Shown here: one piece after another, positions 21,105 to 29,355 of the stretch
How positions within the stretch are numbered: the first letter of the stretch is position 1
Layout of the letters: the number at the start of each line of letters is the position of its first letter
Origin: Acetobacteraceae bacterium
GTDB lineage: Bacteria > Pseudomonadota > Alphaproteobacteria > Acetobacterales > Acetobacteraceae
Direction of reading: 5' to 3'
Assembly (NCBI GenBank): GCA_024280945.1
Contig: JAMXLO010000031.1
Coordinates: 1-64,000 of the forward strand
Length of the DNA: 64,000 nucleotides
Notes under the pieces: generated by a model
Databases searched by the model: none
The model's input: only the letters and a program-made list of their open reading frames with translations
Told to the model about the DNA's origin: nothing
Program-made: the position numbers and the translations under genes

Positions 21105-21743
21105 ATGAGATCACACGCATTCTCACCCGCATTTACACGCACGCGGCAACTGGGTCCGTCGCTATCGCGAAGGGTCATTCTCTCCAGCGTAACACGCGCA
21201 GCACTACTTGCCTGTTTGGACGCAGCGGCACTGCTGGCTGCCGGAACCGGTGCTGAAGCCAAAGGCGGGGATGGTGGCGGCGGAGGAGGGGGCGGCGGAG
21301 GCGGAGGCGGAGGAGGAGGAGGGGGCGGCGGAGGAGGGGGCGGTGGCGGCGGAGGCGGTGGCGGCGGAGGCGGTGGCGGCAGTGGCGGGGGCGGCAGCGG
21401 CGGGGGCGGTGCCGACAGCGGTGGCGGCAGTGGCGGTGGCGGCAGTGGCGGTGGCGGCAGCGGCAGTGGCGGCGGTGGCAATGCCGGTGGAGGTGGCAGC
21501 GGCGGCGGTGATGGTACCAACGCCGGGGGCGGTGGCGGCGGCGCCAGCAGCGGTGAAGGAACCGGCGGGGCTGGCTCAGGCGCAGAATCTGGTGGCACCG
21601 CATGGAGCGGAGAGCCGCCGTCGAACGCTGCAGTCGATGCAGCTCGCGCCCTCGTTGAGCAGGACAGTCATCACTTGGGGCTTCTTGGCCCGCCGCTCAG
21701 CCGTGAACGCGAGCGCGCCATCATACTACGGCACTGGCGATAA
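21105..21743 (+). CDS. Glycine-rich secreted protein
   Basis: The 212-residue frame starts with a basic segment and a hydrophobic helix, SSVTRAALLACLDAAALLAAGTGAEA, that looks like a long signal peptide. About 110 residues of almost pure glycine with occasional Ser, Asp and Asn follow. The C-terminal 45 residues are of normal composition and end in a charged LSRERERAIILRHWR. The signal peptide and non-repetitive tail support this frame. The repeat region 21258-21560 also stays open in two other frames purely through its GGN composition. A surface or envelope-associated role is a guess. Confidence 0.55.
   Translation: MRSHAFSPAFTRTRQLGPSLSRRVILSSVTRAALLACLDAAALLAAGTGAEAKGGDGGGGGGGGGGGGGGGGGGGGGGGGGGGGGGGGGGGGSGGGGSGGGGADSGGGSGGGGSGGGGSGSGGGGNAGGGGSGGGDGTNAGGGGGGASSGEGTGGAGSGAESGGTAWSGEPPSNAAVDAARALVEQDSHHLGLLGPPLSRERERAIILRHWR
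21258..21560. repeat. Low-complexity GGC/GGA/GGG repeat tract
   Basis: About 300 bases consist of imperfect GGC, GGA and GGG triplets encoding polyglycine on the plus strand. Runs of guanine on one strand throughout the tract could form G-quadruplexes and expand or contract by slippage. The tract lies inside the glycine-rich protein gene. Confidence 0.85.
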
Positions 21744-24914: not shown

Positions 24915-27209
24915 CTACCCCGACGCGGATGGTCGCGTCAGCGTCGTGCCGATGCGATCGATGGTAAGTGACGGCAGGAACTCCCGATCGGCGCATATTT
25001 CCATCGCCTTCTTTTGGGTCAGCGCGGTCGTGGCACCTATCGTCTGCTCGCCGCCGCCGATCGACCATGCACTCTCCCACAGCACCGCAAGCAGGTGGCA
25101 CCCGTCGCGCATGACACTGATGGTGTCGTCGCCAAACGCTTTCCACATCGCCTCGGCACGTCCCCGCTTGCCTTTCCCAAGCCCGACAAAGGTCTGCACG
25201 ATCTTCGCCGGCGGGATGGCGTTGAACGTGGCGCGCATCAACGCAATGACACGCTGCGCTGCCTCGAAGCCATCGGCGACGTATTCGGTCTTCTTGGCTT
25301 TTTTCGGCGCCCGCTTCAGGCCGTCGAGTATCTGCTGGCGGAACGCATTGACCATCTCGTCTTCATAGGCGCTGTGCACGCCCTTCCCGAGAGGATCGTT
25401 CACCTCATCCGTCGTGCCGTCGCGATGGTGCACGGTGCGCGTCGTCGGCTGCTCCGGATCGCCGTCGTGCAGATATGAGATGTGCAGTGGCTGGCAGGCG
25501 TCGCCGATATAGTGGGCCAGCACGCCCGCCGCGCAAAGGAAACGCTCGCGATCGCCATCCTCCACGAACGTCACCATCGCGTCGAAGATCTGCCAGACGC
25601 GGAACGGCAGTAGGCCGCGATGTTCCGCGGACACCGGATCGCCGGTCAGCAGGTCAGTGACCTGATCGTAGAACGCGTTCCAGCGATCCGGATCGATCCC
25701 CTCGACCTGCGCCGACATGTCGAGCAGCGTCTGGCCTCCCGGACCCGGTTGGTCCATGTCGGCGAAATGGTTCGGTCCCTCGCTGCCGCGCGATGCGCCT
25801 TGCTTGCCATGCTTCCAGTAGAAATCGGGCACGTCGGCGAGTGGCACGAAATCGGCGTCGCCCATCCCCTTGAAGTCGTCGTTCAGGATCGTCCCGTCGT
25901 CATGCCCGATGATTTTCCGGTTGTTCTTGATCAATGCGCTCAGCTTCGGGAATGTGCCGGACAGCGCAACCTCGGTGCGCGCCGCAATCGAGAAGTGCCC
26001 GACAGCCCCCCATGTGTCCGGTTGATCGAGGTTCCAGTCACGGATCGGATCGACCGTCAGCAGAGCGCACACCCTGCTGAGCAGCGTTGCGAGCACATAG
26101 GTCTGAGCACCCGTCCCCTGACGCGCGCCGAACGTGTTCTGCCCCCACTGCATCGCAAGCGGCAGATACTTCGGTGCCTTCCCCGGCTCGATCGGTTCCA
26201 GCAGCCACAACGTTCCCGAGTCACCCGGATGCGTCGCAAAGGCCGCGTGTGCTTCACCGTTGCTGCGCGGCCCGATGAACAGGTCTGCCACGTATTCGAA
26301 GCCGCCCTGCGACTTGTAGCGATAGAACAGGCCGTGGATCTCTCCCAGCATGACGCCACTCGCCGCGCCGTGCCCACGCACATGACAGCCGATCAGCGCC
26401 AATGAGAGATTGTCGACGGCGAAGTCGGCCATTGGCTCCATCGTGCCGATGCCGCGGATCTTCGCGGTCCACAGATCGAGGTCGTCAACCTCGACCATGC
26501 CGATGTCGAGATTGACAAAAGTCTCACGCCCCGGCCAGCCGGGGTACAGTTCGGTGAATGCCAGGCGGGTCAATTGCTTGCCGGAACTGACGCCGATGCG
26601 GATCTGCTTGCCGGCGAGTTTGGCGTAGACGACCTCGCCCATGTCGCCGACCACGTGGCGGTTGGTGAGCGCATAGACCTTGTGACCGTCACCCACCAGG
26701 CAGGCGATGGTCGCCACGTGGCTCTGCCCCTGCACCTCGGCGACAACCGGGTAGCCGCCACCGATATTGTTGAGCGGATAGCGGATCGGCGGCGCAGTGA
26801 CATCGGTGCGTGCCTGCCGAGGTGCCAGGATGACGCAGACCGGTACCTCGCGACCATCGGGCAGATAGAGTGTGCGTGGCACCATCTGATCCGGACGGTA
26901 TTGCCCGCCTTTGCCTCCGAACGCGTCGGCCTCTTCCCACTTCTCGACGAACACCAGCACCGCCGGCCACGAGTATGGACGCACTTCTGAATTCACCAGC
27001 GTCCGCTCGCCCTTCACCGGGTGGCAGTCGCCATGGTCTTGCGGCCAGCCTTCCTTCTTGCGGATGCGATAGCGGCCGACCGCTGTCGCCACGACGTTGG
27101 GATGCCGCATGAGGTGAATGTGATACTGGTCGCGCGCCTCGAGCAGGTCCTTGAGTGAGAGTTGCTCGAAACGGCTCGACTCTCTCTGATAGGACCGAAG
27201 ATCGGTCAT
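24915..27209 (-). CDS. Trypsin-like serine protease fused to an S1/P1-nuclease-like domain
   Basis: This 764-residue protein has no signal peptide. Residues about 150-380 look like a chymotrypsin-fold protease with a complete triad: His185 in LTNRHVVGD, Asp235 in NLDIGMVEV and Ser331 in HPGDSGTLW. Residues about 470-700 carry the zinc-ligand pattern of S1/P1 nucleases and zinc-dependent phospholipase C: His481 in NHFADMD, His566 and Asp570 in AHYIGD, His576 in QPLH, and His612 with Glu616 in VHSAYED. The first 140 residues are unassigned. The gene stands alone with a good ribosome site (GGGGAGA). I know of no named system with this order. It might be a self-activated hydrolase in defence or competition, which is conjecture. 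Confidence 0.8.
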   Translation of the reverse strand: MTDLRSYQRESSRFEQLSLKDLLEARDQYHIHLMRHPNVVATAVGRYRIRKKEGWPQDHGDCHPVKGERTLVNSEVRPYSWPAVLVFVEKWEEADAFGGKGGQYRPDQMVPRTLYLPDGREVPVCVILAPRQARTDVTAPPIRYPLNNIGGGYPVVAEVQGQSHVATIACLVGDGHKVYALTNRHVVGDMGEVVYAKLAGKQIRIGVSSGKQLTRLAFTELYPGWPGRETFVNLDIGMVEVDDLDLWTAKIRGIGTMEPMADFAVDNLSLALIGCHVRGHGAASGVMLGEIHGLFYRYKSQGGFEYVADLFIGPRSNGEAHAAFATHPGDSGTLWLLEPIEPGKAPKYLPLAMQWGQNTFGARQGTGAQTYVLATLLSRVCALLTVDPIRDWNLDQPDTWGAVGHFSIAARTEVALSGTFPKLSALIKNNRKIIGHDDGTILNDDFKGMGDADFVPLADVPDFYWKHGKQGASRGSEGPNHFADMDQPGPGGQTLLDMSAQVEGIDPDRWNAFYDQVTDLLTGDPVSAEHRGLLPFRVWQIFDAMVTFVEDGDRERFLCAAGVLAHYIGDACQPLHISYLHDGDPEQPTTRTVHHRDGTTDEVNDPLGKGVHSAYEDEMVNAFRQQILDGLKRAPKKAKKTEYVADGFEAAQRVIALMRATFNAIPPAKIVQTFVGLGKGKRGRAEAMWKAFGDDTISVMRDGCHLLAVLWESAWSIGGGEQTIGATTALTQKKAMEICADREFLPSLTIDRIGTTLTRPSASG

Positions 27210-27397: not shown

Positions 27398-27805
27398 ATG
27401 CCAAATCTGAGCGGTGGATGTCTCTGTGGCGACGTCAGGTATTCGGTGTCGAATGATCCGGTGGTCACGTCTATCTGCCATTGTCAGCAATGTCAGAAGC
27501 AAACCGGATCGGCTTTCGTTGAGGTCGTCGCAGTGAACGAGGGCGATTTTACGGTGCAAGGTAACCTGCAAAGCTTCACCTATGCCGGTGACAGCAGGCG
27601 AAAGAAGCACTCAAAGTCTTGTCCGCGCTGCAGCACGACCGTCTTCATTGAAGCAGAGGGTTTTCCCGGACGGGTGTTGATCATGGGCGGGACGCTCGAC
27701 GACCCGAGTTGGTTGAGACCTACAGTGGCCTTGTTCTGCGAGGCGGCCCAACCGTGGATCGCGAGCGAGCACGAGATGACGGAGTTTCTCCGCATGCCCA
27801 CCTAG
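27398..27805 (+). CDS. GFA family protein (glutathione-dependent formaldehyde-activating-like)
   Basis: The 135-residue protein has the zinc-binding pattern of the GFA/CENP-V fold: GGCLCGDVRY at the N terminus, CHCQQCQKQTG around residue 28, and CPRC near residue 75. Members bind two zinc ions and may react with S-hydroxymethylglutathione. Many homologues are of unknown function, so formaldehyde activation is only a family label. It is divergent from the protease-nuclease gene, and the 188 bases between them must hold both promoters. Confidence 0.85.
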   Translation: MPNLSGGCLCGDVRYSVSNDPVVTSICHCQQCQKQTGSAFVEVVAVNEGDFTVQGNLQSFTYAGDSRRKKHSKSCPRCSTTVFIEAEGFPGRVLIMGGTLDDPSWLRPTVALFCEAAQPWIASEHEMTEFLRMPT

Positions 27806-28009: not shown

Positions 28010-28558
28010 TCAGTTATAGCTGACGAGCCGCATGTCCTCGCAACGAAACACGTTCTCAGTGTCGCACAGATCATTCGCGGCGGTGATCACCGGAACGATG
28101 GTGATGGTGACCTCCTTGTTGGTCCGCGCCAGGTCGCGCACCGTATCCGTCACGGTGACCCGCTTCGATGCAAGCGTCAGCGGGTGAGGGGCGCGGAAAT
28201 CGTAACGCTCGCGCGCGTCCTCGTTGACCTCGCAATGCCCGGGATCACCCAGGCAACCGCCATGGCCGAAGATGTAGAAAGAAGCCGCGTAGCCGTGCTC
28301 GCGGTCGCGCGGCGTGTCATGGCCCGCCTTCGGGTTGTTGAAGAAAATGCGGCCCTCGTACGAGGCCTCGCCGTGGAAGATGCCGCGGATCTCCAGATCG
28401 ATACGCGTCAATCGGTGCTCCGGCGAGGCGAAGTCGATCGATACCGGCCGGGTGGTGAATGTCCTTGCGCCGGCGCCGACCCGCCGCGGCGCATCGAGAT
28501 GCCGCGGGCCAGGCGCACGCTCCTTGCGAGGCGCGGGAGTCCGTGGGGTGCGAGCCAT
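28010..28558 (-). CDS. Tyrosinase-associated protein resembling a polyphenol-oxidase C-terminal domain
   Basis: The 182-residue product begins with a basic, Pro/Arg-rich 40-residue stretch. It then has a beta-rich region with YEGRIFFNNPKA, YAASFYIFGHGGCLGD and VTITIVPV. This order of strands resembles the C-terminal beta-sandwich that caps the active site in plant and some bacterial polyphenol oxidases. The ATG overlaps the tyrosinase TGA as TGATG, so the two are co-translated. I infer that it is a detached cap or shielding subunit of the tyrosinase. It is not a MelC1-type copper chaperone. Confidence 0.6.
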   Translation of the reverse strand: MARTPRTPAPRKERAPGPRHLDAPRRVGAGARTFTTRPVSIDFASPEHRLTRIDLEIRGIFHGEASYEGRIFFNNPKAGHDTPRDREHGYAASFYIFGHGGCLGDPGHCEVNEDARERYDFRAPHPLTLASKRVTVTDTVRDLARTNKEVTITIVPVITAANDLCDTENVFRCEDMRLVSYN

Positions 28559-29355
28559 CAGCCAGTCCCTCCAATCGGCACGACGCTCTGCGCGGCGGCA
28601 TATTCATAGCCAAGGTCGTGCACGTTCAGCACGTCACGGACCTGCAAATTGAAAGGCGCCAGCACCTCGTCAAGCAGGTCCGTCGGAACGTTGCCGTTGC
28701 CGTTGCGCGCCTGCCAGAGCCACCAGATCCGATCGATCATCGCGTGATGCGACCAGAAGATCGGATCGAAGGCCGCCGTGCCGATCACGCCCATGTCGCC
28801 GGACACCCAACCATGCACCTGGTCGTGGATGTCCTCCAGCGCGTCGCTGAAATCCGCCCACTCGGTGCGCGACAGGCAGTCATCCACGTCGGCCTGCCTC
28901 GGCAATTCGTTCGGCGGCCCCGGCGACCGGCGGGTTGGCCGCACCACCCGCGGATTGGCCTGCGGCAGGTTGATGCGGAAGCCGAGTAGCGGGTTGGGTT
29001 GGCCATCGGCGCCCGTGCGCTGGGTGAATATGGCCGGCAGCCCATTCTGTCGCGGGGGTCCCAGCGTCCAGTCCCACCACGGCAGCGTCACACCAGGTAC
29101 CCGATCGCGCATCGCCAGTTCCCAGGTGTAGAGATAGGCACGATGCCACGGCAGGAACAGGCGCATGTTCTGCGCCACCCGGGCGTTCTGCTGGTGATGC
29201 CAACAGTACCAGTCCGGCACACCGTGCCGGCCGGCGAGCACCTGATATCCTCGGTTGTCGTTGATCTGCATCATCTGCCGATACGAATCGCGGAACGCCG
29301 CCACCTGGGAGGCGTCCAGGTTATGGACGCCCTGCCTCATGCGGATATCGGCCAT
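28558..29355 (-). CDS. Tyrosinase family copper protein
   Basis: This 265-residue protein is the dinuclear-copper domain of tyrosinase/polyphenol oxidase. The CuB site is complete: His177 and His181 in DIHDQVHGW and His203/204 in FWSHHAMID. At CuA, His44 (GRHGVP) and His71 (FLPWHRAYLYTWE) are clear. The middle His, normally nine residues before FLPWH's His, is Gln62. A His-His pair at 53-54 lies 17-18 residues before it, as if eight residues were inserted. No export signal is seen. It would oxidise phenols or catechols, but copper loading needs proof. Confidence 0.85.
   Translation of the reverse strand: MADIRMRQGVHNLDASQVAAFRDSYRQMMQINDNRGYQVLAGRHGVPDWYCWHHQQNARVAQNMRLFLPWHRAYLYTWELAMRDRVPGVTLPWWDWTLGPPRQNGLPAIFTQRTGADGQPNPLLGFRINLPQANPRVVRPTRRSPGPPNELPRQADVDDCLSRTEWADFSDALEDIHDQVHGWVSGDMGVIGTAAFDPIFWSHHAMIDRIWWLWQARNGNGNVPTDLLDEVLAPFNLQVRDVLNVHDLGYEYAAAQSVVPIGGTG

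Follow-up and report, generated by a model that had tools for sequence, protein, structure and literature searches.

We identified a gene encoding a 764-residue protein in which a trypsin-like serine protease of the plant NARROW LEAF 1 (NAL1) type is predicted to be joined to a zinc enzyme of the phospholipase C and S1/P1 nuclease fold, and in which the tryptophan that aligns with the N-terminus of the free zinc enzymes is conserved in the middle of the chain, at position 400. The reading that we favor, with a probability of about 0.5, is that the protein is an intracellular zymogen cut before Trp400 by its own protease, which would complete the zinc site of a cell-death-like effector. Under this model, the protease (residues 9–396) and a trinuclear-zinc phosphodiesterase (residues 400–764) would be made together as a cytoplasmic zymogen. 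After a trigger, the protease would cut the 399/400 bond, either in its own chain or in another copy, and Trp400 would become a new N-terminus whose main chain could coordinate zinc, as happens in the free enzymes. The freed enzyme would then turn on phospholipids or nucleic acids of the cell itself. More tentatively, and at slightly worse than even odds, we propose that this is a new activation chemistry, in which a protease domain replaces signal peptidase and a self-made N-terminal Trp arms a tethered phospholipase or nuclease for suicide.

The gene is located on the minus strand of the window, by which we mean the whole stretch of 64,000 nucleotides that was analyzed (Table 1), and is present in a single copy in the source genome (6.4 Mb, 156 contigs). 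An earlier note on this DNA had read the locus as one 764-residue chain without a signal peptide; the open reading frame was found at the same coordinates, and a simple hydropathy scan detected no strongly hydrophobic stretch among the first residues. That note had also called the architecture apparently undescribed, which is true in part. A search of NCBIfam with the fusion protein gave no matches and the protein is annotated as hypothetical in all four plasmid records that carry it, but a profile in PADLOC-DB already covers the two-domain protein. In a literature search with most subscription journals outside its coverage, the fusion was not described in titles or abstract openings.

Table 1. 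Features of the fusion gene and its upstream neighbors, in window coordinates
Feature	Coordinates	Strand	Basis or remark
Protease/zinc-phosphodiesterase fusion gene, 764 aa	24915..27209	-	ORF, ATG start
NAL1-type trypsin-like protease region (predicted), residues 9-396	26022..27185	-	Pfam Nal1_C and NAL1 structure match
Catalytic His185	26655..26657	-	Alignment column
Catalytic Asp235	26505..26507	-	Alignment column
Catalytic Ser331	26217..26219	-	Alignment column
Residue 357, predicted S1-pocket position	26139..26141	-	Covariation with residue 399
Linker 396-400, proposed cut Thr399/Trp400	26010..26024	-	pLDDT < 50
Zinc phospholipase C / S1-P1 nuclease-fold domain (predicted), residues 400-764	24918..26012	-	Alignment, model, fold comparison
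182-aa protein, no Pfam match	28010..28558	-	Upstream; also in G051
Tyrosinase	28558..29355	-	Upstream; also in G051

Catalytic and metal-binding residues were counted in an alignment of 58 rows, consisting of the window protein and 57 homologue rows. Three loci taken as duplicates (L001, L018, and L053, of P0001, L002, and L003, respectively) and five that were broken or split (L004, L006, L007, L010, and L048) were left out, and L005 was unmatched. Judged by this alignment, the C-terminal domain contains nine metal ligands, Trp400, His405, Asp459, His481, His566, Asp570, His576, His612, and Glu616, an assignment for which we rely on family knowledge of the phospholipase C and S1/P1 fold together with the aligned motifs. 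The five that the earlier note had recognized as a zinc-ligand pattern (His481, His566, Asp570, His576, and His612) are at the positions it gave and present in each of the 58 rows. Among the four added here, Glu616, which forms a His-x3-Glu ligand pair, is likewise present in all 58 rows, and Trp400, His405, and Asp459 are each present in 57. The exceptions are L028, which has a Gly directly before a masked run in place of Trp400, and is perhaps misaligned, and is masked at His405, and L039, which has an Asn in place of Asp459.

When folded alone from Trp400, the zinc domain was modeled with a pLDDT of 95.1 and a pTM of 0.94 (mean pLDDT of 91 for the first ten residues). This model matched Bacillus cereus phospholipase C (1ah7; Z 18.1, rmsd 2.9, 226 aligned) and S1 nuclease (5fb9; Z 18.1, rmsd 3.5, 231 aligned); the 29 listed phospholipase C and nuclease entries score Z 15.7 to 18.1, and the next row drops to Z 3.7. 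In the AlphaFold2 model of the whole fusion (mean pLDDT 87, pTM 0.56), residues 400–722 matched phospholipase C and S1 nuclease at Z about 17. Against viral folds, the zinc domain gave a weak match (E 0.14). The protease half is, by predicted fold, a bacterial homologue of NAL1: the Pfam model Nal1_C matched the window protein with 35.8 bits, above its curated cut-off of 26.1, and the rice NAL1 structure 8pmi_B matched residues 9–396 with a Z of 35.5 (rmsd 3.0, 337 aligned, 25% identity), the next-best folds being alpha-lytic-type proteases at Z about 20. The two folds for which the earlier note had proposed structure prediction and comparison are thus supported by both models and Z scores. 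The catalytic triad it had named is also at the claimed positions and conserved among homologues, with His185 present in 52 of the 53 rows that have a residue there, Asp235 in 54 of 54, and Ser331 in 55 of 55. The one exception, L046, has a Tyr in place of the catalytic His, which counts against the zymogen model. A stand-alone NAL1-like protein of 347 amino acids is encoded in another genome of the phylum (G357; L068:1504-2547, minus strand), indicating that NAL1-type proteases occur in bacteria without the zinc domain.

The start of the zinc domain is what suggests a cut site. All 29 phospholipase C and nuclease alignments with the zinc domain alone start from Trp400, the first residue of the model, and on the partner side from the residue that opens the enzyme domain of the solved chain, numbered 1 (the phospholipase C family, P1, and AtBFN2), 21 (S1), 26 (TBN1), or 27 (SmNuc1); in the comparison with the whole fusion, the row for 8cqm_B starts at 401 rather than 400. 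Like that of S1 nuclease, the chain starts of the other matched structures are mature ends. Mature S1 nuclease begins at Trp21 once its 20-residue signal has been removed, and its zinc ions are described as coordinated by the N-terminal main chain at this residue (PMC5201275). Trp400 is aligned with the N-terminal Trp of the free enzymes, yet lies in mid-chain in the fusion. In a direct comparison, residue 1 of Arabidopsis endonuclease 2 matched the Trp400 segment with 1.2 bits, which is not significant, and the zinc-helix segment alone was significant. The zinc-helix motif was present in 15 distinct frames from a phylum search, in 10 of which W-x3-GH is located directly behind a signal-like stretch (judged by eye), and the Trp motif was absent by pattern from the other five. 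Eight sequences (L069, L071, L072, L073, L075, L077, L078, and L081) start with W-x3-GH and do not contain the GGN motif, unlike typical S1/P1 nucleases, and are candidates for the closest relatives of the zinc domain among free enzymes.

With an internal Trp400 kept and no visible signal peptide, the simplest reason would be that the chain is cut there. The protease region ends just upstream of Trp400, the match to NAL1 terminating at residue 392–397, and the pLDDT of the fusion model falls below 50 in just three stretches, residues 1–3, 105–107, and 396–400. The pTM of 0.56 makes the placement of the domains unsure, including whether the protease active site reaches the linker. The earlier note had suggested release of the nuclease by the protease, which comes near the reading that we judge most likely, and Trp400 and His405 supply both a concrete site and a reason for it.

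If the chain is cut before Trp400, the pocket of the protease should fit residue 399, and covariation with this residue was therefore examined. Over 57 rows, residue 399 is Tyr in 26, Thr in 15, Phe in 10, Ser in 3, Leu in 2, and Arg in 1. The coupling set consisted of 50 rows, 33 with Tyr or Phe and 17 with Thr or Ser, and included the identical L009 and L035 as separate rows. All 33 aromatic rows have Gly in column 357 and none of the 17 Thr/Ser rows does, these having Gln, Ala, Arg, Met, or Glu instead. Among 708 columns, it is the sole separator of the two classes apart from 399 itself, in a search that was run after residue 399 had already been picked out. Eight rows were left out of the tree and coupling analyses (L065, L066, L062, L059, L054, L028, L003, and L023, the last with Arg at 399); L059, L054, and L003 obey the rule with an aromatic residue and Gly, L023 combines Arg with Gly, and L065, L066, and L062 do not have column 357. 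From the W-G-G motif of NAL1 and chymotrypsin numbering, we take column 357 to be residue 216 of the chymotrypsin pocket, with 217 also possible. In chymotrypsin and elastase pockets, a Gly at 216 leaves room for large side chains, and bulkier residues there favor small ones. The coupling is suggestive of a match between the pocket and residue 399, and it cannot reach significance because each trait changes just twice on the tree.

The fold of the C-terminal domain is common to phospholipases and nucleases and alone gives no substrate. Both Pfam models fell below threshold on the window protein, with 13.6 bits for S1-P1 nuclease against a cut-off of 29.5 and 15.7 bits for zinc phospholipase C against 26.8. 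Among the members of the A2 alignment, matches at an E value of 0.1 or better were obtained with the S1-P1 model for 48 of 48, with zinc phospholipase C for 43, and with Nal1_C for 38; at an E value of 0.001, the domain set gave 36 of 47 for S1-P1 compared with 13 of 47 for zinc phospholipase C. The GGN motif that follows the HxxxD..QPLH stretch in five S1/P1-type sequences (L084–L088) was found in none of the 58 rows. The last ligand in P1 is Asp. The earlier note is right about the S1/P1-type fold and zinc site, but, with Glu as last ligand, GGN absent, and equal Z scores for phospholipase C and S1 nuclease, its designation of the domain as a nuclease is only a possible one. Glu616 and the missing GGN lean toward phospholipase C-like chemistry; the Pfam S1-P1 matches point the other way.

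A scan of species genomes resulted in 56 loci, 48 of which encode the fusion complete and in a single frame; the domain order for which the earlier note had suggested a search is thus shared by 48 intact proteins, spread over eight phyla as judged from record titles and including some metagenome bins. The other eight loci are a split gene (L048), two without the protease (L065 and L066), and five with partial coverage of the query. Division of the fusion into several frames was seen on two rhizobial plasmids (L007:6974-9270 and L010:6971-9321) and in Paraburkholderia (L048:3980-6339). Four of 72,556 plasmid records carry the fusion, three belonging to Rhizobiaceae and the fourth to Sphingobium. 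Searches of phages gave no matches, and of 33 pattern matches in viral contigs none was confirmed. Within the family of the window organism, 5 of 299 genomes matched. Besides the window protein, long homologues were present in G051 (84% identity) and in G205, where the gene is cut off by a contig end, and the match in G121 was fragmentary. A match in G001 was rejected, since by eye it runs antisense to a gene resembling dnaA. In the protein tree, the Bacteroidota group together, the Pseudomonadota need five changes, and the Actinomycetota need three, a pattern compatible with transfer.

The two loci without the protease are from Leifsonia and encode the zinc domain alone (positions 7950-9053 of L065 and L066), with the ligands kept. 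At the chosen start codon about 17 residues precede the Trp; they contain no clear signal peptide, and their hydropathy does not exceed that of some fusion rows. Either another protease trims these proteins or a free Trp is unneeded, and the latter would weaken the zymogen model. In L066, the zinc-domain gene comes after a likely secreted NlpC/P60 gene (by eye).

The genomic context of the fusion was then considered. In the window, as in G051 of the same genus, the fusion is downstream of the 182-aa gene and the tyrosinase, with a glucosyltransferase (by eye) on the other side. Of 40 genomes, G051 and that of the window gave a full-length match to the tyrosinase, and the 182-aa protein is possibly its partner. 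In the window, a GFA-family gene (27398-27805, plus strand) separates the 182-aa gene from the fusion, which it does not in G051 (L002), and a very glycine-rich repeat tract (proline-rich on the other strand) with overlapping open frames spans 21105-21743. The annotated neighbors of the fusion in the window are metabolic, and none of the 10 window proteins scanned with PADLOC matched. Clustering of neighbor ORFs from a crude caller gave no partner family in more than 4 loci, apart from the fusion and its antisense-frame cluster. Profile scans covered 94 ORFs, consisting of 90 of 191 listed neighbors and 4 window neighbors. PADLOC returned 13 models, each in one or two ORFs and the gasdermin model in one; Pfam returned 115 families, the best 25 of which were topped by HipA, CHAD, and sigma-70 regions with 3 of 94 each. 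Near the Ramlibacter fusion, an E1-like gene (PADLOC E1-E2, BilD) and two small genes (L063:1286-3362, minus strand) possibly form a ubiquitin-like conjugation cluster.

The PADLOC-DB profile PDLC03017 matched 48 of 48 family members; its best match, L060 from Bradyrhizobium tropiciagri SEMIA 6148, has an E value of 3.3e-257 and the window protein one of 2e-40, in both cases over almost the entire length. In L060, the next gene on the same strand encodes a gasdermin (E 4.3e-48), and upstream are AbiEi/AbiEii genes, at some 5 kb, and RmrA/RmrT-like genes. A gasdermin of B. tropiciagri has been crystallized (PMC9079055, PMC10989679). The gasdermin model PDLC02986 matched in 1 of 47 genomes with a family member, in a search that took 50 of the 56 loci, and in none of a further six genomes or records, among them the window's, where the control matched nowhere either. 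One gasdermin sequence compared with the window ORFs gave no matches, a search that divergent gasdermins could escape. The pairing in L060 is therefore an exception in the fusion family, and this, like the failure of any partner gene to recur in more than 4 loci and the metabolic neighbors in the window, counts against the zymogen model. By analogy, and given this one gasdermin neighbor, a role of the fusion in phage defense is plausible.

That same neighbor raises the prospect that a separate protein, such as a gasdermin or a regulator, is what the protease cuts, in trans, and that the zinc enzyme folds constitutively and serves as a second effector or scaffold without any need for cleavage. 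The Leifsonia zinc domain without a protease fits this explanation, as does LypC of Caulobacter, in which the peptidase activity is reported to be the part that matters (PMC13236601). We nevertheless regard it as unlikely, as the gasdermin model misses 46 of the 47 genomes, Trp400 remains conserved in mid-chain, and residue 399 covaries with a column of the protease pocket. Less probable again is a housekeeping role, in which the zinc domain would be active without a free Trp in intracellular phospholipid or phosphate metabolism and the protease would serve trimming or turnover. The few defense-gene matches among the neighbors and the Leifsonia variants are in keeping with it, but a gene of general metabolism would be expected to be distributed more evenly than one with a long homologue in 2 of 298 other family genomes (G051 and G205).

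Export of the fusion without a classical signal, for example by a contact-dependent secretion system, with the protease freeing the enzyme outside the cell, appears very improbable. Relatives of the C-terminal fold do carry signal-like stretches, and Het-C, a predicted relative of the phospholipase C/S1 fold, is described from secreted toxin systems (PMC3482391); against this, no recurrent secretion-system partner was seen in the clustering of neighbor ORFs or among the best 25 of the 115 Pfam families in the neighbors. If the zymogen model is instead correct, an enzyme that uses its N-terminus as a ligand would stay safe inside cells, its active site being incomplete until the cut. The immune effectors that are activated by proteases would also gain a member consisting of one chain, a NAL1-type protease would be seen at work outside plants, and three constructs would suffice to test a family whose present annotation is hypothetical.

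Each half of the fusion resembles known proteins. NAL1, which has been called plant-specific (PMC12915138), shares the predicted fold and triad of the N-terminal half, and the matched NAL1 chains differ in having no zinc-enzyme domain. The secreted zinc phospholipases C and S1/P1 nucleases share the predicted fold, the ligands, and the conserved Trp at the matched domain start, but are led by a signal peptide (established for S1 nuclease, judged by eye for relatives) in the place where the fusion has a protease. The L060 system belongs to the same two-domain family as the window protein; the profile name 'trypsin-like' ignores the zinc domain, and the window genome, unlike L060, gave no gasdermin match with PDLC02986. 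Other single-chain proteins also combine a trypsin-like peptidase with a hydrolase C-terminal to it: the trypsin-NucA systems have the same chain order with a NucA-type partner of the HNH superfamily (PMC7159879), and LypC has a flexible linker and an endonuclease rather than a zinc enzyme of the phospholipase C/S1 fold (PMC13236601). The endonuclease of LypC is described as dispensable for lysis and its peptidase activity as essential (PMC13236601), which advises caution, as the fused hydrolase studied here may be dispensable too. Protease-activated pro-nucleases have been shown in Hachiman and AVAST (PMC12799240). In HamM/HamAB and Avs1a/Avs1b, a trypsin-like protease arms a dormant hydrolase, as proposed for the fusion, with separate genes, an MBL fold, and gating loops (PMC12799240). 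Assignment of the window protein to such a gated pair was rejected on its predicted C-terminal phospholipase C/S1 fold and its single chain. Compared with HamM and Avs1a, the fusion would thus combine protease and hydrolase in one chain, employ the phospholipase C/S1 fold, and be activated through a metal-binding N-terminus.
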